NCBI GenBank assembly: GCA_021234155.1 | Contig: JAJEKV010000052.1 | Span: 8,355,358-8,419,357 of the forward strand | DNA: 64,000 bases | Source of the DNA: Isoetes taiwanensis | Taxonomy: Eukaryota; Streptophyta; Lycopodiopsida; Isoetales; Isoetaceae | Direction: 5' to 3' | In this document: positions 2,837 to 61,660 of the stretch, piece by piece | How the letters are laid out: each line of letters begins with the position of its first letter | Position numbering within the stretch: the stretch's first letter is position 1 | The notes under the pieces: generated by a model | What the model was told of the DNA's origin: nothing | Seen by the model: only the letters and a program-made list of their open reading frames with translations | Databases searched by the model: none | Translations under genes and position numbers: made by a program

Positions 2837-3340
2837 ATGGATCCATTCAAGTTCTCACAGAATGCAAAGCTCACTAATAATAATTACCATGCTTGGAAGA
2901 CGTTTATGGTGAATTATTTGATATTTAGTGACATGGGAGCGGTGTTTGATGAAGACTTTATCAGCACCAAGTCAGCAGATGCTGGCAGGATAAACCAGAA
3001 AGCTTGTGCTCTTGTCAAAATGTTGGCTGAAGAGACAATTGGTCATGAAATCAACCATTTTACTGAGTTTAAGGAGATGTGGTCTCATTTGGAGAAGTCT
3101 CTTGATAGCAAGGGTATGGCTACCCAAATGCTGATCCAGAATAAAATGAGACATGCCCAACTAGGTGACTTCAAATCTGTCACAGCATACCTTACTCAGA
3201 TGAAGCAATGGCGCTTGGATTACATGGCTGCTGGTGGAGTGCTGTCTGAACAACAGCTGATTCAAGATATCTTGGTTGGTCTTCCTCCTTCGTATGGTAT
3301 TATCTCTTCGAAGATCGATACAAGCAGAAGATTGATATAG
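2837..3340 (+). pseudogene. Ty1/Copia gag, truncated
   Basis: The frame starts MDPFKFSQNAKLTNNNYHAW, the typical opening of a plant Copia gag (UBN2-type domain) with the conserved Asn-Tyr-x-x-Trp. It continues through the helical region with MKQWRLDYMAAGG and ILVGLPPSY. It stays open for about 160 residues and then stops where minus-strand Gypsy protease sequence takes over (about 3310-3330). No zinc knuckle, protease, integrase or reverse transcriptase follows, so only the LTR, primer site and N-terminal gag remain. The start is supported by the primer-binding site upstream. Confidence 0.8.
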
Positions 3341-4125
3341 CCAAAGTACAAAGGTCGTCCAACCAGCATTTCATAATCACCAGGATCTTCTCCAGCTTTC
3401 CAAACCCCGAATTCCAAGGGGAATTTGAGATCACCAATGGTGATATGGAGAAGAGGAGTAACACCTTGAGGGCGCGTGATATGGCCATTGGCCAACTTGA
3501 TGTCATAAGGGGCACGGTACAACTGTTTGATGCCCAATTGCTTTCGGAGCTTATCAGTAATAAGATTGACGGCACTACCACCATCAATTTGGACATGATT
3601 GACTTGCTGATTGCCCACCGTGGCGTGCACCGTGGGTGTTGAGGTCACAACAGCTCCAACCAGAACCGTGGGAAGAGGTAACTGATCTTTGAGAGCCGGA
3701 CAGAGTTTCAAAATGGTGGCCAGGCTCAAAGGAATCTTGATTTTGGCAAGTTCTTCCTGAAGTTCCAAAGGGACATGAGAAAAGGGGTCCGCAGGATCCA
3801 ATGGAGCCGGAGTTTGTGGTAAAGAAGCGGAGACTTCTTTGAGAAGCTCTACCTCAGCAGCAATATTTGGATACGGCTGAGAGCGGGCGTTAGTGGATGA
3901 TGACGGTGCTGCCTGACGCTGCTGAGCTCTAGTGGTGGCATGAACATTTGCCAAGGTGCGACCTTCCGCAGCCTGCATGAGTTTCAGAATACTTTGTCTC
4001 ACTTTAGGCATGACGTGAGGCATGAGTTTGTCAAGATCAGGTGCGAAGTGAACCTTTTTATCATCTTCATGAGGGACTGTGTCCACAACAAAAGCGGGTT
4101 GCGTGTCATGAGGAAGGATGGTCAA
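3320..4125 (-). pseudogene. Ty3/Gypsy retropepsin region (protease), truncated
   Basis: The minus-strand frame carries a retropepsin-like core: the catalytic motif appears as DGGSAVNLI, followed by KLANGHITRPQGV and the flap and C-terminal part GDYEMLVGRP. This order (gag then protease on the same strand, in a different frame) is that of plant Ty3/Gypsy elements. It breaks off against the Copia fragment near 3320, so reverse transcriptase and integrase are missing. The upstream 130 residues are charged linker without a recognised domain. The first in-frame codon near 4125 is not ATG, so a separate start is unlikely; it was probably read as a fusion or by frameshift from gag. Confidence 0.75.
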
Positions 4126-4292
4126 AGGGCGTGAAGCCCGTGTGTGACGTGAGACAAGACCAACCCAATTGGACTGTTGGACTGGAGGGTTGAGAGCCTG
4201 ATAAATCTCCTCTTGAGCTTGTTGATCCAGAGGATTGGAGGTAGATGCTGCTTGTTGAGGGCGCTATTGTTGAGGCGGCCGAGGGGGCTTTC

Positions 4293-5969
4293 TCAAAACA
4301 GGACGAGGGCCTTGTTTCCCATTTGCCACCCATAGTTGATAAGCCGTGAGGCGGACTGAAGCAGGCTGAGTGGAGCCTGGAAGTTGGACTTGAACTTGAG
4401 GAAGTTGAGGACACGCCGTGGTGGTGTGACCCCATTCATGACAATGATAGCCTTTGAAGGATCAAAGGGAGGACGGTTGCCTTGTCCCCGTGGCTGCTGA
4501 GATTGCTGCATTTGTTGATACTGCTGAGGTTGTTGAGGTTGATATTGCTGAGGCTGATATGACTGTGGTTGTTGAGGCGTGTTCTGGACTTGAAAGACCA
4601 TTTTATTCCGGAAAGGTGTAGGATGAGAGCGAGTGCATTCCTCGGTGGCATGATTGCACATATTGCACCTTTTATAGTGAGGAGGTCCATTGGAGGAGTT
4701 GCATTCATTTGCCGGATGACCTTGATATTTACAAATATTACACCAGATCTGTGAGCGTTGGGGATTTGTTTGCTGAGGCTGAACAGAGTTCTCTGGAACC
4801 ATGACGGGGGGCATGAAAGGGAGTTCCGTGAGAGCAACACCTCGAGAAGAAACATTGACCGAGTGATTGACCAATTCAATGGCCTGCTCCAGAGACTTTG
4901 GACGCAGGTATTCTGTCATGAGTCGAATGGCAGGAGGAAGGCCCTGCAGAAACCAGACGAGGATCTGGCTTTGCGTGGGGTACTCCTGGAGTTTACTGAC
5001 GAGAATGTGAAGACGGTCCACAAAATCCCTGGCTGACTCCGTGGGCTCTTGCTGAAGGTCATTGAGTTGCTTGAGAAGAAGTTGATCATCATCGGTGGTG
5101 CCATAATGAGAAAGGAATGCTGTTTTTATTTCATGCCAACTTTGTTTCCAGTGACTTTTGTTGGTCATCAACCACTGATGAGGGGCGCCTCTGAGCGTGG
5201 TGGAAAAGATGTGAAACTTAAGTTGTGGTTGCGCATGACCATTCAGAATAGCCAAGGCTTCGAATTCCTCCATATGGGCTTGAGCACTCTGATCCAGAGG
5301 TTTGCCTTTAGTGTTGCCAAAAGTTGGATAAGTCAGTTTCAGATTATAAGTGGGAGATGAAGGCGGGACTGACGCATAGACAGGTGGATGCGGTGGAGGA
5401 TATGCGGAAGCATAGAGAGGTGGAACAGTCTGGGGCTGAGAGTCTGGGGGTGGGACTGAAAAAACGTGTGGTCCCGCAAAAGCAGCATCTGGTGGAGAGG
5501 GGCCTTGAGCCTCCTCATTAGGCTTGAGATCAGTGACTTGATACACAGGAAAAGCGTGCTGAAAGGATGGTGAATGGGGAAACTCATGAACGTGGGAAGG
5601 GCCAAAGGACACTTGAGGATAGCCCATCCCAGCAGGAGGTGAAGAAGGTTGTGACGGCTGAGGGGTGTGGCATGAAGGGATATGGATATAGGTGCTGTCA
5701 GGAGTCTGGAAATAGTGAGGCGTGGGCTGAACAGGGGTATGCTGGGGAGATTGAGGTTGAGAACAATGTCTACACACAGGGGGAGACCCTGGTCGAGAAT
5801 GAGCACGAGGGGTAGGAGGTGCCGACTGAGCTCTGGAACGGACACAACCCCCCTCAATGTCATAAGCAGTATCATACATATCCCGAACAGCCTCGCGTCG
5901 TTGATGGCGCTCCAGGCGAGCCGCCGTTTGGCAAAGGAGTTCGTCAGGAGTGAAACCTCGAGCCGACAT
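4293..5969 (-). CDS. Ty3/Gypsy retrotransposon gag polyprotein
   Basis: A 558-residue open frame starts MSARGFTPDELL, about 110 bp after the LTR at 6080-6588. Residues 1-210 are Pro/Ser/Gln-rich. Residues about 220-380 form a retrotransposon gag domain (YPTFGNTKGKPLDQSAQAH, then GAPHQWLMTNK, then ARDFVDRLHILVSKLQEYP). Two Cys/His knuckles follow (CNICKYQGHPANEC, spacing CxxCx4Hx4C, and a second CNMC...H...EEC), then a glutamine-rich tail. It would form the nucleocapsid of the element. The frame is uninterrupted, in contrast to the copy at the window edge, but the element lacks pol, so it cannot move alone. Confidence 0.85.
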   Translation of the reverse strand: MSARGFTPDELLCQTAARLERHQRREAVRDMYDTAYDIEGGCVRSRAQSAPPTPRAHSRPGSPPVCRHCSQPQSPQHTPVQPTPHYFQTPDSTYIHIPSCHTPQPSQPSSPPAGMGYPQVSFGPSHVHEFPHSPSFQHAFPVYQVTDLKPNEEAQGPSPPDAAFAGPHVFSVPPPDSQPQTVPPLYASAYPPPHPPVYASVPPSSPTYNLKLTYPTFGNTKGKPLDQSAQAHMEEFEALAILNGHAQPQLKFHIFSTTLRGAPHQWLMTNKSHWKQSWHEIKTAFLSHYGTTDDDQLLLKQLNDLQQEPTESARDFVDRLHILVSKLQEYPTQSQILVWFLQGLPPAIRLMTEYLRPKSLEQAIELVNHSVNVSSRGVALTELPFMPPVMVPENSVQPQQTNPQRSQIWCNICKYQGHPANECNSSNGPPHYKRCNMCNHATEECTRSHPTPFRNKMVFQVQNTPQQPQSYQPQQYQPQQPQQYQQMQQSQQPRGQGNRPPFDPSKAIIVMNGVTPPRRVLNFLKFKSNFQAPLSLLQSASRLINYGWQMGNKALVLF

Positions 5970-6079
5970 GATGGAAGAAAGATCAGACCTGGCAGCGGCG
6001 ACAGTGTTTGAGGTCTAGGTTCGGGAACTCCTGCAAGACAGCCCTCTGTGAGGATCTAATAGGAGAATCCGGGGAGCTA

Positions 6080-15310: not shown

Positions 15311-17070
15311 AGGAGGTTGCAGGTGCCGTTCCAGGTTGCTGCTCCAATCACTTCAAAAGGGCCTTCCCATAAACCCTCAAATTTGGCAGCTACATCCTCC
15401 CTTGCTTTGTTCCACTTAAGCACCAATTTTCCAGTTTTGAGAGTACCTTGAAGCTTGTGGGCAGCCTTGAAAGCTGCTATATCTTTAGCTTCTATGTCTA
15501 GCTTTCTTGATAAGAATTGCATTTTTGGCCTCAAAGCTATGCTCTTCTAGCTGCAATAATCTCACACATCTTTCTTTTAGTGCATCCTTCGTTTCCAAAT
15601 TAATTTGACATGCCAATCTAAGAGAGGGTAATTCAAGCTCAATGGGAACAATAGACTCAATACCATATACAAAGGCTAAAGGGTGTGTGCTTGGTAGATG
15701 CCTTGATGATGCTCCTATATGCCCATAAGGCATCATGCAACTTGATATGCCAATCTCTTTTTGAGACACTGATGGTTTTCTTAAGAATTGACTTGAGAAC
15801 TTTGTTGGTGGACTCAGCTTGGCAATTACCTTGAGGATAGAAGGCTGAGCTCTTGGTGTATTTGACTTTGAGGTTAGATAGCAATGTGCCTATGGCTTTG
15901 TTCATAAATTGGGATCCTCTATCAGATATAAGCTTGAATGGGATTCCATTTTCATGGAGAAACCTTGCAGTAGTAAAAGCATTAGCTTCCCTAAGTGGGG
16001 CTGCCTCAGCCCATTTTGTGAAATAATCAGTAGTTACAAGAATGAATTAATGTTGAGCTGATGAAGGAGGATCTATAGGACCTATAAAATCAAGTCCCCA
16101 CACTTGAAATGGGCCTAGAGAAGTAATAACAGTGAGAGAAGCTGGCTGCAACACTCTTTTGCCAAAGATTTGACATTTATGACAACACTTTATTACACCA
16201 TAGCAATCTTCAAAGAGAGTAGGCCAGAAATACCCTGATCTCAAAATCTTCTTGGATGTTGTATCAGTATCTTTAGGCACCTCATTATACTCCAAGTACC
16301 TCCTAATACCATATTGCCAATCCATTTCCTTCTCATGCAAAGCAATAAGGTTAGTAGACAAAGTACAATCATTTTCATCCAATCCCTCTTGATCTTCATA
16401 TTCAAATAAAGCATTGGAAAGATAGGAACTTGGACTATTAACAAGATTGGCTACTCTCACACTAATATCCTAGGTTTGAACTTTGCAAGTCCACCTACAT
16501 AGTTTAGCTTTTGGCTGATTTTTTGCAAAGAGAAGAGACATGAGGTTCTACTTCATGAACACTTGTATGTGGCTACTCTGCAAGAGATTTATCATGAACA
16601 TAAGGGCTGCTGCACTCTTCTCCAGCCTTGAGTACCTAAGCTCAGTTTCAGACCACATTTTGCTTGCAAAGGAGACAATTCTATCATCTTGCAGCAATGC
16701 CAAACCTATGGCCTTTTTGGTAACACTAATGTAGGCTTGGAAAGGTTTTTAAGGTCTAGAGGTTTTAGCAAAGTAGATTGGCATATGGCATCTATGATTC
16801 TCTCAAAGGCCTCTTGACAAGTTTCATTCCAATCTACTAGCATGTGCTTGCTTTCATTCTTTGTAAACTTCCCTACCTTTGTGAGGCTGGAAATAGGGTT
16901 GATAGTATGCGAAAAGTGAGAAACATACATTCTTAGGAAGCTGGTCATACCTAGGAAGCTTTTGACTTGCTTGAGAGTTCTTGGAGGAGCAAGCTTTTTC
17001 AAGGCCTCTACCTTGTTTGCAGCTACTTGAATGCCTTTGGTGGAGACCTCATGACACAACCAAAAAGGAG
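15300..17070 (-). pseudogene. Ty3/Gypsy pol relic: RT end, RNase H, integrase
   Basis: Reading the minus strand from 17070: the end of reverse transcriptase (GIQVAANKVEALKKLAPP, KSFLGMTSFLRMYVSHF), RNase H (IVSFASKMWSETELRYSRLE, FAKNQPKAKLCRWT), the integrase zinc finger (H...CHKC), the integrase core start (GLDFIGPID), the catalytic Glu region (YPQGNCQAESTNKVLKS) and the integrase C-terminal part (WEGPFEVIGA). Stops and frame changes break it into at least four frames. The order is that of Ty3/Gypsy (RT, RNase H, integrase). No gag, protease or LTR is attached. It abuts the LINE endonuclease fragment at about 15300. Confidence 0.85.
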
Positions 17071-17730
17071 ATAAAGGGAAAGTAGTAAAGATTTTTTATA
17101 GGTACAAGGGCAGAAAGACGCAGTAATGCACTGTATGTCACGATCTTTCTTGGCTAATGAGGGGGGAAATGGAAAAACATAAACTGTGTTTATATGTACA
17201 AGGGCAAAAAGACACAGCCAGTTTTACTCTAGATGACTCTCGATGGAGATATTACAAGCAAGCCCCAAGCCCATAAGAACAAATCTTAAATTTTGGAGCT
17301 AGCTTGGGTGAAACAAGTATAACTATGTCCCATATAACTTTTTCTTTACAATTGCATTTTGCATAAATTTTATAATGTCAGATTTGTGGAAGCTGTGCAT
17401 TCATGATTAATATTGTTAATACGTGCATTTGTATCAGCAAGTTGCAATGCTAGTGATGATGATTCAACTCTTGAAAAGGAGAAGGTAAGCTGAGAGAGAG
17501 AGAGACATGCCAATAAGTTGTTAAGCATGAAACCAATATTGCCTGTGAGATATGTCGCTCCTCCAAATATAGCAAACTGTGGCTATCAATCTCAACATTG
17601 CTAGACAATAAAGTCTAATGGACTCTCTCAAATTCTAGACAACGGTATTGTTGTTTTAAGCTCTAAATGGATGAAACATTAGAAAATGATTTTAGATTCC
17701 GGAATTCCTTATAAATACATGTCATTAGCA
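17071..17730. other. No gene seen; short repeated segment
   Basis: A short motif (TACAAGGGCAGAAAGACGCAG) at 17102 recurs at 17199 in slightly changed form. Nothing coding was recognised. Confidence 0.4.
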
Positions 17731-19930: not shown

Positions 19931-22844
19931 GCATTTTATAGCTATTGCTACTTGAATTGAGGTATGATTCACGAAAAGGTAGAGAATAATGGTGTATGAG
20001 GACGCAGATCCATGAAGTACGGATTATAAAATTACGCATACATTGCATTTTGTAAGAAGATTGATGTTCCTAGGCATGCAGTATAGATGCAAGGGTATGC
20101 CCGAGTAAGATGACCACGTAGCCACGTGGATATGCTTATCATGCTAGCAGAAGGTGCAACCATTTGAAAGCTATAAGGTATGTTGGAGCTTTGGTGAAGC
20201 TATACTATGAAGGAAAGTTGACCTCCAACTAAAGATACATTAGGGAGGCAAGTAATGTACCCACACGACAAGTGGGAGACAAGAGGAGCTTGAAGTTGTT
20301 GTACACAACGTTTCAAATATAGAGAATTTGAAGGGACACTTTGATTAGCCCAAAGTCTGGCATATGAACAAAATAGGTGCCCAATGAACATGTCACCAGG
20401 GAGAATGTGATCTGGACTTGATATCGTGTGTGTATCGCACGGAGTATCTCCGCATTGGTATATGCGTACTAGGACCATTTTATGTTAAAACATAACAAGA
20501 AAGAGATAGGATGTATAATAGAACTTTTAATTCACAGTCCAGATGAATACGGAAATAATGAAGATAGGAGTTTCTATAGTAGAAGTTAAACATGTCTACT
20601 AGGAACCTAGGGTGGCATCTGCCTCTATGGAATTTGTGACTAGAGCTTGAGGATAAAGGCAACTAAGATTAGAGAGTCTAAAAAGCGTGGTGTCAAAACC
20701 CCAATATGTATATGGTACAAGATAAATGAGTTGAGGAAATACATTTGCGGCAAGTGTGAACATAGCTAGGTGGCTATGTCAAAGAATCACTATGACTCTA
20801 GACTTAGGGTTGTCTTTCACATGTTACTATATCACATAGTTACACGATAGGGATTGTGGATGTTGGAAGGATTTAGTAGTATCAAATACTACACTAGTGA
20901 GGATATCAAGGATGTCGATTGTGACATCCAGATGTATGTCATATTAGAAGATAGCAGAATATTCGTACAAGGCGAGTGAAATATTGCTTAACAAGGTTTA
21001 AAGAATAAGCATAATGATATGCTTATATACGAAGATATTGGGTTAAGTATGATCCACCAGAGATAAGCATTCAAGTTATCCCAATGGTTGGAGTTGACCA
21101 TCTTAGGTACATGGTACTAAAGGATATGAAAAGAGTTTAAATCAGAGAAGATAGCCAGAGTAAGTCTAGCATATACAGTGAGGTTACATTCAAGAACATC
21201 CCGAGAATGGTTGGAACGGTGTTGGAATAACAGATAATGAGAGGTTAACTACTCAAAGGTTCTAGATACCAATGAATTAATTCAACGTTATAAGTTGAGA
21301 GTATCTATTGGGTTTGGGTATAACAGGATGTATGAAATATCCCGTCGAATGATGGGAAAGAGAAAGATGACTACTTTGCCGATCATCTCCTTAGGCTGAC
21401 CGACAAAAGGGCAATATATAAGAATTGGAAGTTTCAATGAAAGTCCAAATGAGGTGCATAGATTAGAAGGGGTGAGATTATATGGACTAATAGTCCATAT
21501 ATCTTAAGAGTTACCCTACTCAGGGGGAGCAATTGTAGATACTGATCATGAAGTAGAAGCTGGAGGATCCCTTGCCTTGAGGTATAGACCTCTTATAGAT
21601 TATGGCTTTAAGACTAGGTTCGAACATAGGGGTTTTTCTATTAAGAGATCAAGAGGTTTTAATGCCTCCGTTTCATTATGAGGGAGCCAAAGACGGCAAC
21701 ATTTGAACCCGATCAAAAGCTGAAGTTGACATGATAACTTAAGAAAAAAAGTTGATTGTGACAAAGCATGGTTGATCTTAGAAACACGAAGGATATTTAG
21801 CTGAATGAGCCTTTAAATAAACTCTGCAACTGGGGTAGCAACCTTTGGAATTATGGCATAATCCCGTGTGGGGACCATAAGGCATTCAAGGAATAGTTGA
21901 AATACCTAGGGACCCTATTAAAATGTAGGCAGCATATACCGTTCCAACATAGAGTTAGCTACTGTCCATTTGGCAAGTCTATGGGTCAGCCACAACATAA
22001 AGGTATATAGGCAATGGGTTTTGTTTCAAGGAACTACCAAGGTTACACTTTAGCCAAGTTAGAGCGGAGCTCTAGCATTGTGGGATGAAGATATATGATT
22101 ATTATGTGCATACTATGTACACATACGATAAACATCTTGGAGAGGTAATCTAAGTGGTGACACGGGGAGAGAAAGATGAGTGTACCCCAAAGTTACCGAT
22201 GAGGGGTCTAGAGATATGTTCAGAATGTGCAAACGACCGTCAATCTATTGCATTCTAAGGTATGATGTTGTAGTTGTCACTTGAAATAAATGTCAATGGC
22301 CCATAGAATAAAGCTCGAGGTAATGGGGTTGAATAGTACAATAGTAGAATTCCAGGATGGGTAGGGAATAGCAGTTACCTGCTAGAAGCTCGAACGTTTC
22401 TTGCATAGACACCTAAGATTAGATCTCTGATCCATATCCGGGTTAGGCAGAGGTGACCCCCATGGGTTAGATGGAAGTGTAAGTTAGAACATATAGGGCT
22501 CGAACATTGATACAAGTCTTGGTTATATCAAACGTAGGTAATTTAGGAAGGATCACAAGATGCAAGGCAAGCACCCTGATGACTCTACGTAATTTACGAT
22601 TCTTATGAAGGCTCACTCGTTACTTACACCATAACTATGGCTTAGGATGAGGATGCCAAGTCATTTGGGATACCACAATAATGGCATAACGTCATGACAG
22701 AGAAATGTAATGACTAACATTTCTAGGGTGTATAACAACGTTGAATCATAACCCTCAATGATATGAGGGTTAACGCGGGGAGGTTGGAAGCAACCTTGGA
22801 CATAAATTGTTATATCATATGGTATATAATAACAGTTTAGAAGC
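19931..22844. other. 2.9-kb stretch without a recognised gene
   Basis: All frames are full of stops and no known motif was found. It lies between the relic at 19660 and the chromovirus LTR and may be decayed retrotransposon interior, but nothing supports a specific family. Confidence 0.4.
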
Positions 22845-25049: not shown

Positions 25050-26600
25050 ACCTCACACTCACTTATCGGTTTGGTGTCGACTACTTCAGTAACGAGATGA
25101 CCCTTGCATTGCTCCATGAATTGGGGGTACTGCTTCTCCAAATCTGATTGTAGTACCCACGTAGCATCTTCCACAGGCAAGTGCGTCTATTTCACTAGGT
25201 ATTGGAGAAATTGTGATCTTCTTGTCTTCTTATAGGACCTGTCAAGAAGAACCTCTGGGACAATTTCAAGCTGGTCGTCCGTCATCTCCAGTAATTCTGT
25301 TGTCTCCAATACTTCCTTTAGATTAGGAGTGTGCCTCTTCAGGAGACTTATATAAAAGACCCTATAGATTTTGAGATGTGCTGGCAGATCCAACTTGTAG
25401 AATTGGTTACCTACTCTTTTGGTTATCCTGAGCGGCCCAGCCCATCTTGGAGCAAGTTTCTTGCAATTGCCGATGCGGAGCTTCGCTTGCTTGACCTTGA
25501 TCTTCAGCCATACGTTGTCCCCAACTTAGAACTCTCTTACTGTTCTGTGCTTATCGGCTACACTCTTCTGTCGGCTTCTTGCTGCTAGAAGATATCCTCT
25601 CACTTCTTCCACTAGCTGCTGCATATCAGATAACATCTGTTGAGAGACTTCAACCTTGGACACTAGATTGTGCCACGTATCTGGTGTCAAGCATTGATAC
25701 CCATAATTGATCATGAAGGGGGACATCTGGGAAGATTCTTGTTTGGTGCTATTATAGGCAACTCCATCAAGTGAATCCCACTTAGATTGCTTGTTCCAGA
25801 CATAGTCTCTCAACATATCTTCTATGATTCGATTCGTGCGCTCCGTCTACCCATCCCTCTGAGGATGATACGCCGTACTCATGGAGAGTTTCGTCTGAAT
25901 CGTGATGAACAAGTTTTGCCAAAATACGCTCATGAACTTTGAATCTCTATCCGAGATTATTTCTCTCGATATCCCGTGGAGTCTAAAGATCTCTTTGGTG
26001 AACAATACGACGATATCTAACGCCGTGTCTGTGGTCCTGCACGCCACAAAATGTGCCATCTTTGACAATTTGTCCACTACTACCATCAAGTCATCTTTGC
26101 CCCTTATGGTTCTCGGGAACCCTGCAATAAGGTCCATGCTTATTACCTCCCATTTCGCATTCGGCACAGGCAATGGCTCTAATGCTCCAGGAATTTGAAG
26201 TTTTTCTGTTCGTCTGCTGACATAACTGAATGTACTTGGCTATCTGCTTTTTCATGCCGGGCCAGAAGCATCTACTTCTGATCTTAAGATAGGTTGCCTT
26301 CCTTCTTAAAATGCTTGAAGGTTTCCCTCTCTTTGTCCATTCTTGCCTCCTTAGAAAGGCTTGCCCATGCTTCCTTGAAGTCTCGGTCCGTTGGCAACAT
26401 TTCTTCTATCTTCTTGCCAAACATACGGGTGAGTTTTGATATGGCATTGCAATGGACTCTCGTCATCAAGGGGTGCCTTGAGAGCGCATCCGCAACCACA
26501 TTGAGCTTGCCTGGCTTGTACGTGATGATAAAGTCATACCCCTTCAGGAACTCCATCAATCTTCTTTGTCTCAAATGGAACAACACATGCATGTCTCCTA
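25050..26600 (-). pseudogene. Chromovirus pol 3' half: RNase H end, integrase, chromodomain
   Basis: Minus-strand frames give the end of RNase H (RLMEFLKGYDFIITYKPGKL, VADALSRH), the integrase zinc-binding part (CFWPGMKKQI), the integrase core (WEVISMDLIAGFP, VDKLSKMAHFVACR, ISDRDSKFMSVFW, AYHPQRDG), the integrase C-terminal module (SQMSPFMINYG, LKIYRVFYISLLKRH) and a chromodomain tail (QYLVK, then HLPVEDATWVLQSDLEKQYP). Integrase chromodomains guide chromoviruses to marked chromatin. Several stops and frameshifts interrupt it. RT, protease, gag and the 5' LTR are missing, as homology ends near 26600-26650. Confidence 0.85.
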
Positions 26601-35603: not shown

Positions 35604-38185
35604 TTACCTGTGAGCCAAGGCAATTCTCCCAGTAGTAGGCCATTGCGCCCTTGTGTGAGAGCAAATCTCCTTGAGCTTGAGGGTAGTATCTTCCTCATCA
35701 ATAACAACATATTCAATTCCCTTTATCCTTTGAGCATCAAAGCCAATATGGGGAACTGTGATTGCATAAGAACCAACTTCTTGGGCAGAGCCATTTTTCA
35801 CCTTTGAAACATAGTGTGATGTGTCAAATAACTTGGGGACAGAAACCAGCTCAATAAGGTCCATTTCTTGGCACTGGTTCTTCACATAAGAGCCTGCTTC
35901 AAGGGACCATGCTTTGGCCTGCAAGATGGCATCCAGTTTGAAGAAGTCAGGAGGAGAGCTGCTGCATTCATGCAGCATGGAAGAAAGATCAACTACACTG
36001 TCAGAGCATTTAGATGATGATAGAAGGTAATCTTCCATAGCATCAACTGTAATAAAACTGTCAAGGTGAGGCACCTGCCAGGTATGGCTATGGCTAGGCA
36101 CAATATTATCAACTTCATTCTTTGCCATGGATTGAGTGTCAAGATTTTGAAAAGAACATGCTTCAGAAATAAACCTTTCATCAGCAGATTGAGAGGTGTA
36201 TAAATGTGTGGAAGTGCGAAAAGGATCGAAAGGCGGCGCGATCTTGGCGCCTTTTCTAGTGTCTGGGGTTGGATCAGGATCATGGTGAGGAATGAGGATG
36301 CCTGCAGAATTTTGGCATTCTTGAAAACCATTAACACAGCCTTCACACTGGCATGCAGCCAAGGCAGGAGGAGAGCAGCCCTCTTCAAGCATAAAACCAT
36401 ACTGCTTAACATCACAGAAACCATCCCTTGCCCTGCTCCAATTTTCTGCCAACCCTAAACCGGATCTGCCACCAAAATTCCACCCACAATTTTCATAATC
36501 CAATGAACAGCCACCACCTTGGAACCCTAAATCAGAACTGCTGCTTTCATCCTGGCAGCAGGCCATTTTCTTAAGCAGCTTATCCACCTCTGTTTTGCTC
36601 ATATCAGATTCTAGCTCTTTGGCCACATTTTGCAGCGCCAAATTCCAGTTAGAATTTGAGCCTGAATCAGAATTTGGATCCGGAGTATTGGGTATGGTGG
36701 ATTGGCGAAGCTTTTTGCTTGATTTACTTACAGTATGAGGGTAGAGCTTTTGTATGTAATCTCTGAGGATAGTAGGCCGCCGGACTTCTTCCAAGTTTTG
36801 GGATGATCCGTCTGTGGCTTTTCTGTGCTTCCGGCGAAGGTCCTTCCTTCTCATTGTAGCATTCCAATGATTTTTTATAGCATTTTCAGTCCGGCCGGGA
36901 ATCAGCTTTGCAATATCTGCCCATTTATTTCCGAGTCTGCGATGGGCCGAAACTAGAAGCCGTTCTTCGTCTTCCTTCCAGATATCACGCTGCACAAAAT
37001 CGACCAAATTCACCTTGTCAGTAGGCTAGAATAATCTTAAAATCCAATTCAGATTTATCACACAGCAGAATGGATTCACTGAATTTTTTGAAACAGCAAG
37101 GATGCTGGAGCAGAGAAATTTAATTTCAAGAGTAAAACCTTGATATCTGGCTTGAGATGATTGTGCCATCGTTCCCGGCATTGTTTTCCGATCCGGCCAG
37201 GAAGATAAGTAGCTATAAGAGACCATTTTTGGCAGCCATGCTTGGCGACCAGCTCCATCAGATACCTGCGAGAAATCCAAAATATATCGATCAGACAATC
37301 CAAACAAAATTAATTCCTTTCGCAGATCATAAATTCTGCCTTTGGCCAGACAACCAAAATCAAATTTACTGGCTGCAAGCGAACCTGTCTTCTTCGGGAG
37401 TCCACTGGCCCTTTGTGATATTGGGCCGTTTGGAAATCGATTTGGAAGCTCGTTTCATCATGCATTTGCCGCTGTTAGTGAAATCCCGATCGAAATTAAA
37501 CAGCCCACATCCTGGATTTTGATTATTTTTATTCGATAGCGACGTTGGCCCCATTTCTAGCTTTCCCATAATAGAGCTGTCGCTGTTTTTATCCATTTCA
37601 TTCCCTTGAATCTGCAGCTGCTGCCTGTATTTGTGATTTTCTTCAATCTGCAGATCCAACACCTTCGATTTTTGTGATTGGGTCATGCAAATCAGACCGT
37701 TTACCTCATCCATGAATTCGCCATTTTCCCATCCTTCTATTTCTTCATCATAAATCGATTCTACAGCATTATCATTCATTGTTTCGTCTGAAAATTCCTG
37801 GCCGCCGCTGTTGCTCAGCCCCAGAATGTCCTTGAGTTCATCCACTCCCTTCTGATCCATTTTGTTGAAGCTTGGCGACGCGGGTTTCCATAGCTGACCT
37901 TGTTTGAATTCTTCCTCCAGCGAATTCCTGAAGCTCGAAAACATCTCTGGTTTTGTTTCGCAAAACTTGGGTAATATGTCATTAAAATCGAAACGAGTCG
38001 GATTCAAAACCGCGCCAAATCTGAAAGACAACTACAGATCAACCACCGGATCAGTCTGTGCATTACTGGATGTGCAAACGGAAAAAAAAAAATTAAAAAA
38101 AATGAGACAGAATAGTTAGGATCATACAGGTCCAGAGGGCGAGCCGTGAGGCATTCCTGCTGGAAAATATATTCCAGCTCCAGAT
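35604..38185 (-). CDS. R2R3-MYB transcription factor (MYB98/MYB115/MYB118/MYB119-like clade)
   Basis: Minus-strand exons: possible 5' exon 38128-38185; 37385-38020 (acidic N-terminal region, ending GQWTPEEDR); 37139-37265 (rest of R2: [40 protein letters not shown]); 35604-36990 (R3: [40 protein letters not shown], then a long C-terminal region). Junctions are GT-AG and restore frame. R2 and R3 have all expected Trp/Ile positions. The sequence GQWTPEED and the R3 [16 protein letters not shown] are typical of the clade that includes female-gametophyte and embryo regulators of flowering plants. DNA binding and nuclear location are inferred from family. The first in-frame ATG in the main exon is near 37944; an upstream exon may add residues. 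The stop at 35604 overlaps a CAG/GTAACC donor. Confidence 0.85.
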
Positions 38186-43824: not shown

Positions 43825-44760
43825 TTCAGATTTTAACTGCTCCAGGGTGTAACCTTCCTCTGTTGCAGATTTAATCAACTGCAAAATATTAACCTCATAA
43901 TTTGCTCTAATATGGTTCTAGAATATTTGATTCACATAGACTTCCTCCCAGGTACACTCCCTTAACATTACTACTGGCCTGATCAACAAATGCATCTATG
44001 GCATCTTCTTCTTTCAGCCCACTCTTGTCATTACTTGCACTTCCATCAACCTGTACAAATGTCAAAGATTGTAAAAAAGTGGTTGAGATTTTCCTACAAA
44101 GAGAACTGTGTGCCTTTGAAAGTGTTCTATAAACGTACCTCACCCAAGAAAAACGAACCCTGGTTTCCTATATCCAAATCAGATACCAAATACTTAAAAC
44201 AGTTTTCTTACAGGCATTACCAATAGTACGTTATATAGGAGACCAATCATGCCTCATCCAACATCATGCTCTTCAAATTATTATCGGTCATGACTGCATA
44301 TGCTCCTGATAAAGCTCCATCTGCCAATATAAGATGTAATTGGAGCTCCATCATTGAAATCCCTTGACTCCGAGCTTGCTTGCACACAGAACAAAATTCA
44401 TCTGTTGCAACCTAAATCCCAACATTTTTACTAATAAGAAGTAGGCACATAATTTAGTCTGTGGCCAATTATCTACCTCAAATGGTTTTCCCAAGCCTTC
44501 AATCCTGCATTGAATAAAAGCATGTTTTAGTCTGTAAGCCAATCCCATGCGAGTTAGCATTTCTTTTACTCAATTTGTCGAGCCCATTAGTCTGCGATGA
44601 CAACTTCGTTGACTTCATTTCATCAGACTCCAGTGCCTCTGCCATACATCTCACTTCAGATGACAATTCGTCTACAACTCTGGCTAGGTTTAACAAGGAT
44701 TTCTCAACTGCCAATAGGGACTTTCTGATTTGCTCATTGGTGGTTTCCTTTTAGACGGAC
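43825..44760 (-). CDS. Exons of an unrecognised multi-exon gene
   Basis: On the minus strand several short frames are bounded by good splice sites: a coiled-coil-like exon (RKSLLAVEKSLLNLARVVDE, CMAEALESDEMKS) near 44570-44760; a 28-base exon IEGLGKPFE near 44480-44510; VATDEFCSVCKQARSQGISM and LHLILADGALSGAYAVMTDN at about 44250-44410; VDGSASNDKSGLKEEDAIDA at about 43920-44050; and a 57-base exon LIKSATEEGYTLEQLKSEQ at 43825-43881 between TTTTGCAG and CAG/GTATGT. One junction (after MMLDE) lacks a GT donor. I do not recognise the protein. It may be a host gene or an element-derived gene. The coiled-coil exon has a frame change just upstream, so it may be decaying. Confidence 0.45.
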
Positions 44761-45109
44761 TCTGCACATCTGATGCATCTTCTCCAAGACAACAATTCAC
44801 AGCCTTTTTCCGCCCTTGCACATGATCGCCCAAAATAGTTTCATAATGAACCCTAGCAATGCAAAGCATAGAAACAGAATACGGCCGTATTCACTGTAGA
44901 ATACGGCGAATACGCCATTAAAAAAACCGTATTTGCGAAATACATACGCCGTAAGGGAAGTCTAAAACAGAATACGCCCGTATTCCTGAGAATACGGGCC
45001 CAAATACGGCCGTATTCAGTGTTTAACGGAAAAAATTCAACGTAATGGGGCTTCTTTTTGTTTTCTTATAACCTCTCTGTTGTTTCGGCGGCGCCCGACC
45101 TTCTTTTGG

Positions 45110-45312
45110 AGTATTCTGTTTCTGTGCAAATAAGGCAGCGTCGACGAGTACCCCTGGATTGAACCGATTGGCGAGGATAAGGTTAGGGGTCCCAAAAAAT
45201 GTATTCTTTCCTGTTACTGCACAGATTTGAAATAGGCATACATGATCAGAGCCCATTAAAAGTCGTCCAAGGCCACAGCAATGACAGCATCCTCTATCAG
45301 TAACCTTAAAAC
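45110..45312 (-). pseudogene. GDSL esterase/lipase last-exon fragment captured in the hAT element
   Basis: The minus strand shows a 3' splice site (TTTCCCTGCAG) followed by GFKVTDRGCC, GLGRL, SDHVCLFQ and NLILANRF. This is the end of plant GDSL lipases, which usually read GFxVTDRGCCGxGR, CLPFxxPC, then YVFWDAFHPTEAANxIxANRxFNG. The block carrying the catalytic Asp-x-x-His (DAFHPTEAAN) has been lost by deletion. The retained splice acceptor shows DNA-level, not RNA-level, capture. Confidence 0.7.
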
Positions 45313-45523
45313 CTGCAGGGAAACAAACCCAGTTCATATAAAAATTTCTTTTCCTTGCTTAAATTTCTTAGCCCATCTAAACCTGTAAGCCTGTAAACCA
45401 ATACAGAACTTATTGCTGACTGATAGTGTGTAACTTTTAGATCTAGAGTACAAATTCATTTCCTTCCGGTTCTATCTGCAACAGAGATTGAGGAGTAGAT
45501 TATACATTAATGCTTTGTTGCAG

Positions 45524-45773
45524 GAATATGTTTCAACTGTCGCAGGACGTGATTTTCCAGTAACAGGTGTGCAGTGGCATCCTGATTCCTGAGGTATGTG
45601 AATTTGCTATTAAAATTCTTCCTCTTCGCATGTAGCAGCCTATGGATTCAATGGCATTGGGTTATCTTCTCAAATGATGATTCATTTGCAGAAAAATGCA
45701 TTTGGATGGGGTTTGAATTCCATTCCACATAGTGCTGATGCAATTCAAGTTACTCAAAGTGTGGCAAACTTCT
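45524..45773 (+). pseudogene. Gamma-glutamyl hydrolase fragment (two exons and an intron) captured in the hAT element
   Basis: Exon 45524-45593 follows TTTGTTGCAG and reads EYVSTVAGRDFPVTGVQWHP; it ends at GAG/GTATGTG. Exon 45692-45773 follows TTCATTTGCAG and reads KNAFGWGLNSIPHSADAIQV then TQSVANF and a stop. These are the C-terminal motifs of plant gamma-glutamyl hydrolase (peptidase family C26), which trims folate polyglutamates in the vacuole; the His of QWHP is the usual catalytic His. A 7-base duplication at the end of the first exon shifts the frame. Upstream exons with the catalytic Cys are absent. Sequence then passes directly into transposase coding sequence. Confidence 0.85.
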
Positions 45774-46517
45774 AATAAGAGGAGGTTTGACTACCAAACT
45801 CCAGCATACTATTTGGATCCCGAATATCAAGGAGGTCCTCCCTTTAGAAATGGCACTGTTCAGGCTTATTGGGATAATTATCTTTTTCAACTTGCTCCTA
45901 GGGATGATGTGAGGAGACAGGTGAAAAGTCAAGCCCTTCTTTTTCATAGAAAAGAAGGGAGATCTTCATTTCCTGATGCACAAAAAGATAAGTTTAGAGT
46001 AAGTTCTGGTACTTGGTGGTACGAAAATTGTTATGATATGCCACAATTGCAGGATATTGCACAGAAATTATTGTGTCAGTGTGCTAGCTCTTCCTCGCTT
46101 GAGAGGTTATTTAGTACATTTGAGCATGTGACAGATGGGAAAAGGGGCATTAGAATGTTGCCAGAAAGATCGAGTGCTCTTGTATTTGTTGCACATAATT
46201 TGAAACTTCGTAATGAGAACAGAGCTGCAGCAAGCGTCCTTCCTGAAATGTACGTTGGCTTGGGCAAGAAAGCTAGCATTCCAGAGCCAGAACAATTGCT
46301 AACATGGGGCACTGATGGAGATGATGATTATGATGATGGCGTTGAAACAATTGAGCATGCTGAAGGAAATTTGGAAGTGGGAAGCACTAGTGGATCTTTG
46401 GAGGAAGTAGGGAATGTTGGTAGTGGTTCTTGGTATGGTGAAGTTCATGGGGAGGATCATGATTATAGCCCTACTGCTGATGTTGAATTTGTTCCATCCT
46501 CTCTCTACCCAGAGTGA
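45774..46517 (+). CDS. hAT transposase, C-terminal part with dimerisation domain
   Basis: An open frame reads NKRRFDYQTPAYYLDPEYQG, then WDNYLFQLAPRDDVRRQ, SSGTWWYENCYDMPQLQDIA, CASSSSLERLFSTFEHV and SSALVFVAHNLKLRNE, the last parts being the hAT C-terminal dimerisation region. A long acidic, Gly/Ser-rich tail follows (DGDDDYDDGVETIEHAEGN). The open frame extends back to 45732, but 45732-45773 is hydrolase exon read out of frame. The catalytic N-terminal region is missing, so it is a remnant, yet the frame is intact for about 245 codons. Confidence 0.8.
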   Translation, partial: NKRRFDYQTPAYYLDPEYQGGPPFRNGTVQAYWDNYLFQLAPRDDVRRQVKSQALLFHRKEGRSSFPDAQKDKFRVSSGTWWYENCYDMPQLQDIAQKLLCQCASSSSLERLFSTFEHVTDGKRGIRMLPERSSALVFVAHNLKLRNENRAAASVLPEMYVGLGKKASIPEPEQLLTWGTDGDDDYDDGVETIEHAEGNLEVGSTSGSLEEVGNVGSGSWYGEVHGEDHDYSPTADVEFVPSSLYPE

Positions 46518-46916
46518 CAGTATCATATCCTTTCTATGTTGGTTTATTATATCTTATCTACATATAAACTATGGTGATGTAACGTAACAAAACTTTTGAG
46601 TTACTTTTATGTTTTATAATATGATAAACTTGACTTTTAAATTTTGAGTTACTTTTATGTTTTAATATGATAAATTTTACTTTTATGTTTTCTTCCCTTA
46701 ATGTTGTTATTATTGCAATAGAAGAATTTACAGTTTTCATATTTAAAAAATAGAGATTAAGCTGAAAAGATCAAGTACAAATATGATATTTTATGGAATA
46801 TTCTAAGAGAATATTCCGTATTCTCCGTATGCGTATTTCACGTATTCGTATTCCGTATTCATTTTTGAATCCCCGTATTCATTTCCGTATGCGTATTATG
46901 TCACTGTGATGCAAAG

Positions 46917-48192
46917 GTTTTTGAATTGAAATGACCATTTTGAAAGACCATGCCGCCTCCTTTAGCCTGCAAAAAGATCCAGTCTTTGAAGGAAGAAAAA
47001 TGGAAGGAAACAGAAGCAAGGAAGAAAAGAGAGGAACACATTGGCAAACTGTGGCACGAATAATACGTTGAAGCCCCAGGGTACAGAAGCATTAGCTGTG
47101 ACGTTGCAATTACTTTAAAGCTTAAGATGGTAGGTCTTGATACTTGCACCAGTTTGCAAAGCGAACTCTCTCCCATGGATGCTTGTATATGTGCTCTTGC
47201 TTCAATCCTTGAAATATTCTTAGTTAATGGATTGATTGAAACAGAGATTTGACTTACCTGATTCCTTCCTACACCAATTTGGCGACCCACAACCATAATA
47301 AACCTACGATTAGCCAGTGTCTTGATTGCAAGAAAGTTATAACCAAGCATCCAAGCATGCTCTTACACGATATGAAGAGCAGAGATGGGCCTCGCACAGC
47401 AACAAGAGTGACCGGAAGATTTGATGGCAATAGCAAAGACGGGCCTCGCTCAGCAACAGGAGTGACCACCAGTTTAAGGGCAATGGCAAGTTTGGAGCAG
47501 TTTCCAGGATATTCTAGGCATATACCAGCATATGCTCAGAATATGCTAAAAAACCACTTGAGCGACGGTTTGCCCCCATAGGGGCAACCCAAAAAATGAA
47601 CTGAATTATGGTATCTTCACTTTGGGTAAGTATAGTAGTTTTCAATGATGGAAACGTATGTGCTTGATGATTCTCAAGCAAATTCTTCATAAGATCTTTT
47701 ATTTTATGTATGTTATATAAAAATAGTTGCAACATGTATGTTTTAAACCACCTTCTCAAATTTCTTCTTTTCCCCGACATCTTTGTCATAAATTATATTC
47801 CCTCATCTTCTTATGTTCATGCAAAAATGCAGCAACCCGATGCAAAAAGCCTACATAAGCTAACAAAAACTTTAGCTAATCTGATGATCAAGACAAATCT
47901 GCTTAGTGAAGGAAGGAGAACTGATGTGTACAAGCATTTAGAGGTCGTTCCAGAAAGCATGCAGGCATTGGTGCTTTATACCAAGGATTATTATGGTTTA
48001 TAATATGCTTTGACAATTGCTTCTGTGTAAATGTTAATCAAGCCTGTAGTTCTCGTTGAGGAGGGCTGGGTAGCCTGCAGAGTTTCACAATAATAAGATC
48101 GTTAAAACAGATTCATACTTCTTAATTGCATTTGTTCTTTGAAGTCATTTTATCCTTATTTGCCCTTTTCTAGATTACATTCAAATAAGATG
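46917..48192. other. Flank of the hAT element, possible isolated exons
   Basis: On the minus strand IKTLANRRFIMVVGRQIGVG ends at a good donor (CAG/GTAAGTC, near 47258), and a splice acceptor (CTTTTTGCAG) occurs near 46972. On the plus strand 47830-48003 reads QPDAKSLHKLTKTLANLMIK and RTDVYKHLEVVPESMQALVL after an ATGCAG acceptor, with a stop at 48001. I recognise neither. A 54-bp tandem duplication lies at 47383-47490 (GGGCCTCGC(A/T)CAGCAACA). Confidence 0.35.
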
Positions 48193-60678: not shown

Positions 60679-61660
60679 TTAAGTTAATCCACCCATCCAC
60701 ACCACGAGGTATCCTTCCTCTTTTTTTACCCGAGCTATGTTCTGGTTGCACATACTCCCATCACCGTCGGTAGGACTCTCGTTGTTAACATCTTCTTCTT
60801 CGTGAGTGATCTCTGGTTCATTTCCTTCAAAATTGAAGCATACAAAATGAATTAAGCAAAAACAATCAAAGCTGAAAGCTAAAAAACATAAAACAGAAAC
60901 TAACCTGACGGTGTAGTGAATGTTGCTGGAATAGACGACTCTGAAACTAAACCGCTCGGATTTACAGCGGTTTTCATGCCATACCATCGATCCATAGCTT
61001 CATAAACATCGGAGTAGAAGTTTATTGGCAAATTGCAATCCTTGCGCTCAGGATTTGCCATCTGCTAATAACTATTTCTACCACTTGGAATTTGCCTTTC
61101 ATAGTCATTGATCTTCTTGAAGTCTGCCGCCAAAGATTCCCACTTGCTCATGCATGCCTTGGCTGACCTGCGCACGTTATTCTTCCAACAATACTCTTCT
61201 ATGTCATTCCATCTAACTTCTTTCTTCTTCATCTTCTCTCTGCCCCCACCAAATAGACGAAGTTCATCATCTTCTTTCTTGGCGGCTTGTAGAACCAATA
61301 ATTCATCAGCTGTCCAATGTGTGCTAGCATATTGCCTTACAGTGGGAATGGCAGACACGGGATTTGAAGCATGGTGACTAACACCAAATGCAGCAGTAGG
61401 CATGTCATGGCATCCCATGCCTTGAGTTTCATGCACAATTTCATCTTCAGACTCATCTAGCATCCTACTGAATGAGTTCTGTGCAATCATAATTTAAGCA
61501 TTTTAGCAATTTCAGTAACTATACAGACAATGGAAATCGAAAATTATGTGAAATTAAATTGCAAATGTAAACATCACCTGGTGAAACTGTTCATATGGAT
61601 CATGTTGCTGTTGTGCTGCAAAAAAATTAAAAGCAGACCCAGCACCGTTGCTTCCTCTCA
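60679..61660 (-). pseudogene. Myb/trihelix-like ORF1 protein of the PIF/Harbinger element
   Basis: Exons on the minus strand: about 61578-61660 (MRGSNGAGSAFNFFAAQQQH, donor CAG/GTGATG), about 60905-61483 and about 60679-60835. The second exon starts NSFSRMLDESEDE and contains the trihelix (HWTADELLVLQAAKKEDDEL, then VRWNDIEEYCWKNN, CMSKWESLAADFKKINDYER). A TAG stands where a Trp codon is expected after GRNSY; beyond it the frame continues QMANPERKDCNLPINFYSDV. The last exon (NEPEITHEEEDVNNESPTDG) has a frameshift at an A run. Harbinger ORF1 proteins bind DNA and carry the transposase to the element. This copy is disabled. Confidence 0.7.

Follow-up and report, generated by a model that had tools for sequence, protein, structure and literature searches.

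A non-autonomous hAT element in Isoetes taiwanensis carrying exons of a gamma-glutamyl hydrolase gene and, probably, a head-to-head piece of a GDSL lipase gene

Introduction

Capture of host gene fragments by hAT transposons is documented in maize. Du et al. in 2011 described two Ds2 and nine Ds-l4 elements with gene fragments and treated such cases as rare for hAT elements (PMC3260210), and Gisby and Catoni in 2022 reported maize Pack-hATs, which are hAT-ended elements with host gene pieces (PMC8903248). An earlier sequence-only reading of the DNA studied here held that Pack-type capture is less well described for hAT than for Mutator, Helitron and CACTA elements, which is a fair statement given these maize cases (Ds2 and Ds-l4, PMC3260210; Pack-hATs, PMC8903248). 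Three of the described maize elements come close to the present one. Ds2-22 (Ac/Ds, hAT; PMC3260210) has terminal inverted repeats, an 8-bp duplication and two exons plus the intron of a hydrolase gene, a fragment that its authors judged to have been copied from genomic DNA. The compound element Ds-l4-483 of the same report combines a short hAT unit with inverted ends on one side, a foreign middle, and a further hAT end with an outer duplication. Finally, Ds-l3 (PMC3260210) is a decaying hAT derivative with transposase gene fragments. As to mechanism, a 2026 review (PMC13317346) presents a neighbouring-element model and says that fragments which are not linked may arise by a mechanism still to be discovered, in a main text that does not contain the word hAT.

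Here, we describe a 2,042-bp non-autonomous hAT element at positions 44867–46908 of the window, by which we mean the whole 64-kb stretch of DNA that was analysed. It is an element of a known kind and not a new kind of element, and it offers a well-preserved case of a hAT gene capture, an event that the 2011 work presents as rare in the superfamily (PMC3260210). It differs from Ds2-22 in family and host, in holding what are probably pieces of two genes where one gene fragment is reported for Ds2-22, and in its long open transposase tail. Compared with Ds-l4-483, its left unit lacks a separate duplication and its right part is a transposase tail instead of a truncated copy of the left unit, whereas in comparison with Ds-l3, host gene pieces occupy the place of the missing transposase sequence (PMC3260210). 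Under the rule given in PMC8903248, by which a BLAST match of more than 250 bp to a transposase files an element as autonomous or derived from an autonomous one, the present element with its 744-bp tail would probably be filed in that class; its transposase match above cut-off is PF05699 only, which covers 68 residues of the tail. In our literature search, no hAT element came to light that holds parts of both a gamma-glutamyl hydrolase (GGH) and a GDSL lipase gene, which is no claim of absence from print, and there was no title on hAT capture in ferns among the matches listed.

Element ends and transposase remnant

The element is flanked by an exact 8-bp repeat, ATGCAAAG, at 44859–44866 and 46909–46916, which fits nTnnnnAn, the target-site consensus given for Hermes (PMC2803484). 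Between the two copies lie the left terminal inverted repeat CATAGAAACAGAATACG (44867–44883, plus strand) and the right one CACAGTGACATAATACG (46892–46908, minus strand), which, when the right end is compared with the left as its reverse complement, agree at 13 of 17 positions, a similarity that is not significant without the duplication. Indeed, ends of 13/17 prove nothing by themselves (the left end is matched equally well at 20361, 33639 and 63703 of the window); their combination with other features does. Among 2000 first-order Markov sequences based on the 4.1-kb region, 5 had an 8-bp repeat next to ends matching at 13/17 or better, and none of 2000 did when the repeat had also to fit nTnnnnAn. 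At a looser cut of 11/17, an 8-bp repeat and matching ends were present in 52 of 300 random regions. With up to three mismatches allowed, the terminus pattern had 14 matches in the window against 7.6 expected, of which only the two outer ends (no mismatch) and the one at 45110 (one mismatch) were used.

The subterminal regions hold repeated motifs. Of 16 copies of CGTATTC on the two strands of the 64-kb window, 13 fall within the element, where eight CGTATTC/GAATACG motifs form a left array (44877–45017, in the left 151 bp) and five form a right array (46817–46880, in the right 92 bp), with none between. Since these motifs cluster near both ends, the two ends look like those of one family. Several hAT transposons are known to require sequence far inside their terminal inverted repeats (PMC10368747). 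No second copy of the element was found in the window by blastn.

The right part of the element (45774–46517, plus strand) stays open for 247 codons up to a stop and encodes the C-terminal part of a hAT transposase. It contains the hAT dimerisation domain (Dimer_Tnp_hAT, PF05699; about 45999–46202, plus strand), found in Pfam with E=2.7e-9 and 37.1 bits against a cut-off of 21.4, and its openness over 744 bp was reached by none of 2000 shuffled sequences of equal composition. Hermes was matched weakly (E=0.47) across the same part as PF05699, and no relative at E<=0.001 was found in the protein collection (289 candidates). Pfam showed no domain for a catalytic RNase H-like core or a BED finger in the six open frames scanned within the element, as is expected of a non-autonomous derivative. 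The short open stretch GSVDEYPWIEPIGEDKVR (45134–45185, plus strand) has no Pfam match and might, at a guess, be the start of the old transposase, in the BED-finger region of hAT proteins.

The sequence-only reading had proposed a single hAT element bounded by an 8-bp duplication at 44867–46908. These coordinates proved exact, and the duplication, the ends, the subterminal motifs and PF05699 all bear out the proposal. Our analysis goes beyond that reading in describing the subterminal repeats and, as set out below, an internal inverted terminus, the head-to-head geometry of the cargo and the frame breaks within it.

Captured gene pieces

Immediately to the left of the transposase tail, and on the same strand, lies a piece of a GGH gene. 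It consists of exon A (EYVSTVAGRDFPVTGVQWHPE, 45524–45593), whose 3' end carries a near-tandem insertion of 7 bp, a 98-bp intron running from GTATGT to TTGCAG (45594–45691), and exon B (KNAFGWGLNSIPHSADAIQVTQSVANF, 45692–45772), which is cut by the junction with the transposase. Without the 7-bp insertion, exon A measures 63 nt, which make 21 codons in phase 0. For searches in PDB and Pfam the exons were joined and the insertion was left out. This query matched four distinct GGH sequences in PDB with E from 6e-11 to 2.2e-7, and the six further PDB matches listed, with E from 0.2 to 0.89, are unrelated proteins. In Pfam it reached GATase (E=0.045) and Peptidase_C26 (E=0.13), both below cut-off, and the exon frames scanned singly had no Pfam match. 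Because the GT-AG intron is retained, the GGH piece was copied from DNA or from unspliced RNA. The two GGH exons and their intron on the plus strand had already been recognised from the letters of the DNA, as had their direct joining to transposase sequence; both claims hold, and the junction given as "near 45773" falls between 45772 and 45774. The GGH codons run directly into a TAA, and the transposase is read in a different frame, which rules out a read-through GGH-transposase fusion protein. Splicing around this junction might occur, as might a chimeric or antisense RNA.

On the minus strand, 45186–45312 very probably represents part of the terminal exon of a GDSL lipase/esterase gene, as judged from motifs of these plant proteins. 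Translated, one frame gives FKVTDRGCC-HCC-GLGRL and the following frame CMPISNLCSNRKEYIFWDP, which we take for blocks from the C-terminal region of plant GDSL lipases, correctly ordered and spaced. The piece is preceded, at 45313 on the minus strand, by a splice acceptor ending in CTGCAG (..TTTCCCTGCAG), and both a near-duplication of 9 bp and a frame change occur within it. A deletion of one base ahead of the FWD motif was considered for this change and ruled out by three-frame translation, which puts it further upstream. Searches with GDSL pieces of 39 to 111 aa, short and broken as the stretch is, yielded nothing relevant in Pfam or PDB, neither PF00657 nor a solved relative. Only phosphoglucomutase appeared in PDB (E 4.6 to 5.2), the protein collection held no candidate for the stretch, and the motif strings were not found in the literature search among the matches listed. 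The presumed GDSL terminal exon, postulated earlier on the minus strand, has a splice acceptor, and its identity found no confirmation in Pfam, PDB or the protein collection.

The arrangement of the two pieces bears on how they were acquired. The GDSL piece runs left from 45312 and the GGH piece runs right from 45524, head to head and intron to intron; the 211 bp between them (45313–45523), with CTGCAG (minus strand) and TTGCAG (plus strand) at the edges, hold their upstream introns facing each other, the junction of the two introns lying somewhere within this interval. If the GDSL identity is accepted, a single contiguous capture therefore cannot explain both pieces. An intact chromosome segment would look otherwise, and at least two copying or joining steps are therefore required besides the hAT junctions near 45185 and 45773. 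On the same assumption about the GDSL piece, we infer at least three new junctions, for which template switching is better suited than the excision of one chromosomal piece. Host coding sequence between terminal inverted repeats, which together with the exclusion of singletons belongs to the Pack-TYPE definition of PMC8903248, is established here by search for the GGH exons and made probable by motifs for the GDSL piece. As far as can be read from the DNA, this cargo is passive, with the GGH frame and the presumed GDSL frame both broken.

Both exons carry a small insertion. In the GGH exon it takes the form ATCCTGA/TTCCTGAG, readable as ATCCTGA (G lost) followed by (A to T)TCCTGAG, where the first base of the second copy is the complement, and the 8-mer that it implies, ATCCTGAG, fits nTnnnnAn. 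In the presumed GDSL exon, the 9-bp insertion reads ATGCTGT-CAT-TGCTGTG, and its implied 8-mer ATGCTGTG fits only half of that consensus. Exact 6-mers repeated at these spacings are common, at 52 and 57 places in the window, and slippage yields similar near-tandem products. That both insertions, of about 8 bp, are hAT excision scars, and that the cargo was copied from gene sites which a hAT element had entered and left, is in our view unlikely. If true, this reading would tie gene capture directly to excision breaks.

Origin of the element

Starting from the observed ends, target duplication, transposase tail and GGH exons with their intron, we consider the probable origin of the locus to be DNA-level capture of filler sequence, from GGH and probably also GDSL genes, in an internally deleted non-autonomous hAT element. 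In an autonomous hAT parent, the N-terminal and catalytic part of the transposase gene would have been deleted, and copies of DNA from two or more genes would have closed the gap. One source would be a GGH gene, contributing two exons, the intron between them and part of the preceding intron; the other would most likely be a GDSL lipase gene, contributing its last exon and part of the preceding intron. The filling may have occurred when a double-strand gap, left by a deletion or an interrupted excision, was repaired by a strand that switched to unrelated templates, and the element would afterwards have moved to its present site as one unit with transposase made elsewhere. The sequence-only reading had also proposed capture at the DNA level. 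This finds support in the intron-bearing genomic copy of GGH joined to the transposase, while the GDSL part on the other strand is only probable. That a hAT family in this plant captured genes repeatedly, as that reading went on to infer, is no more than a possibility.

An additional participant is suggested by an inverted copy of the left terminus inside the element (45110–45126, minus strand; inverted-repeat pair I4), which matches at 15 of 17 positions, a level reached by none of 1000 random Markov interiors. Together with 44867, this copy bounds a 260-bp unit, and a second short hAT copy may thus have taken part. A compound or neighbouring-element origin explains the internal terminus no less well than simple gap repair does. 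In such a compound (macro)transposon, a complete short hAT copy (44867–45126) would have lain near a 5'-truncated hAT copy carrying the transposase tail, and the outer ends would have moved together, carrying the already scrambled DNA between them. The inverted terminus is the strongest evidence for two hAT copies, and there are parallels in maize Ds-l4-483, which comprises a complete Ds-l4, foreign sequence, a truncated copy and an outer duplication (PMC3260210), and in the neighbouring-element model that exists for Pack-CACTA (PMC13317346). However, no target duplication follows 45126, where the DNA reads CAAATAAG against ATGCAAAG; the CGTATTC motifs of the 260-bp unit are confined to its left 151 bp, with none beside its right end; and the captured DNA is already a head-to-head mosaic, so that a separate joining step would still be required. 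We therefore regard a compound origin as doubtful, though it is the most credible of the alternatives. A simple 260-bp hAT unit (44867–45126) as the whole story is ruled out by the missing duplication at 45127. As a separate observation, TGCAAA, which lies in the target duplication (44860–44865), recurs at 45125–45130, formed by the TG of the terminus and a following CAAA, possibly by chance.

Helitrons and Pack-MULEs, too, typically carry fragments of several genes together. An alternative is that the GDSL and GGH pieces were joined earlier in another mobile element (e.g. a Helitron or MULE) or by an unrelated rearrangement, and that the hAT element took up the finished mosaic in one step. 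Against this, no convincing inverted ends were seen inside 45127–45773 among the listed pairs (25 of 46), of which I8 alone (19 nt, 74%) lies entirely within this interval. This is a weak argument, and Helitron ends are not detectable in this way; on balance, we hold such a prior mosaic to be very improbable. Least credible of all, to the point of being nearly negligible, is the view that no true element exists and that an 8-bp repeat flanks unrelated pseudogene debris by chance, a reading that can draw on the frequency of repeats with 11/17 ends in random regions and on the three stray 13/17 matches of the left end, but that is opposed by the rarity of repeats with 13/17 ends, which vanish once nTnnnnAn is added, by the subterminal motifs clustered near both ends and by the hAT domain (PF05699) inside the element.

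Filler capture in a deleted hAT element hence remains our preferred explanation. Once sister elements and parent genes can be compared with it, three of its features, namely the head-to-head order of the cargo, the internal terminus and the scar-like insertions, would be useful for separating gap-repair capture from compound-element capture.

Insertion site and neighbourhood

If the 8-bp site is kept once and the flanks are put together, the minus strand has two frames out of three that stay open across it (..NGHFNSKTFALLGFIMKLFW.. and ..SFQFKNLCIARVHYETILGD..), of which one or neither may be coding, and the insertion may have struck degenerate coding sequence. The flanking stretches 44690–44890, 44499–44750 and 46901–47362 (minus strand) had no Pfam match above cut-off. 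The left flank at 44499–44890 (minus strand) looks coding-like with a frame change, with only sub-threshold Pfam matches for 44499–44750 and none for 44690–44890.

Further away in the window, an open frame at 61065–61493 (minus strand) contains a Myb/SANT-like DNA-binding domain (PF13837, E=3.7e-10). Inspection of the open reading frame list by eye indicated retrotransposon-like frames at 3262–6014, 15485–17095 and 25187–26239 (minus strand), and the frames at 35604–38031 (minus strand) resemble, again by eye, an R2R3 MYB transcription factor gene.
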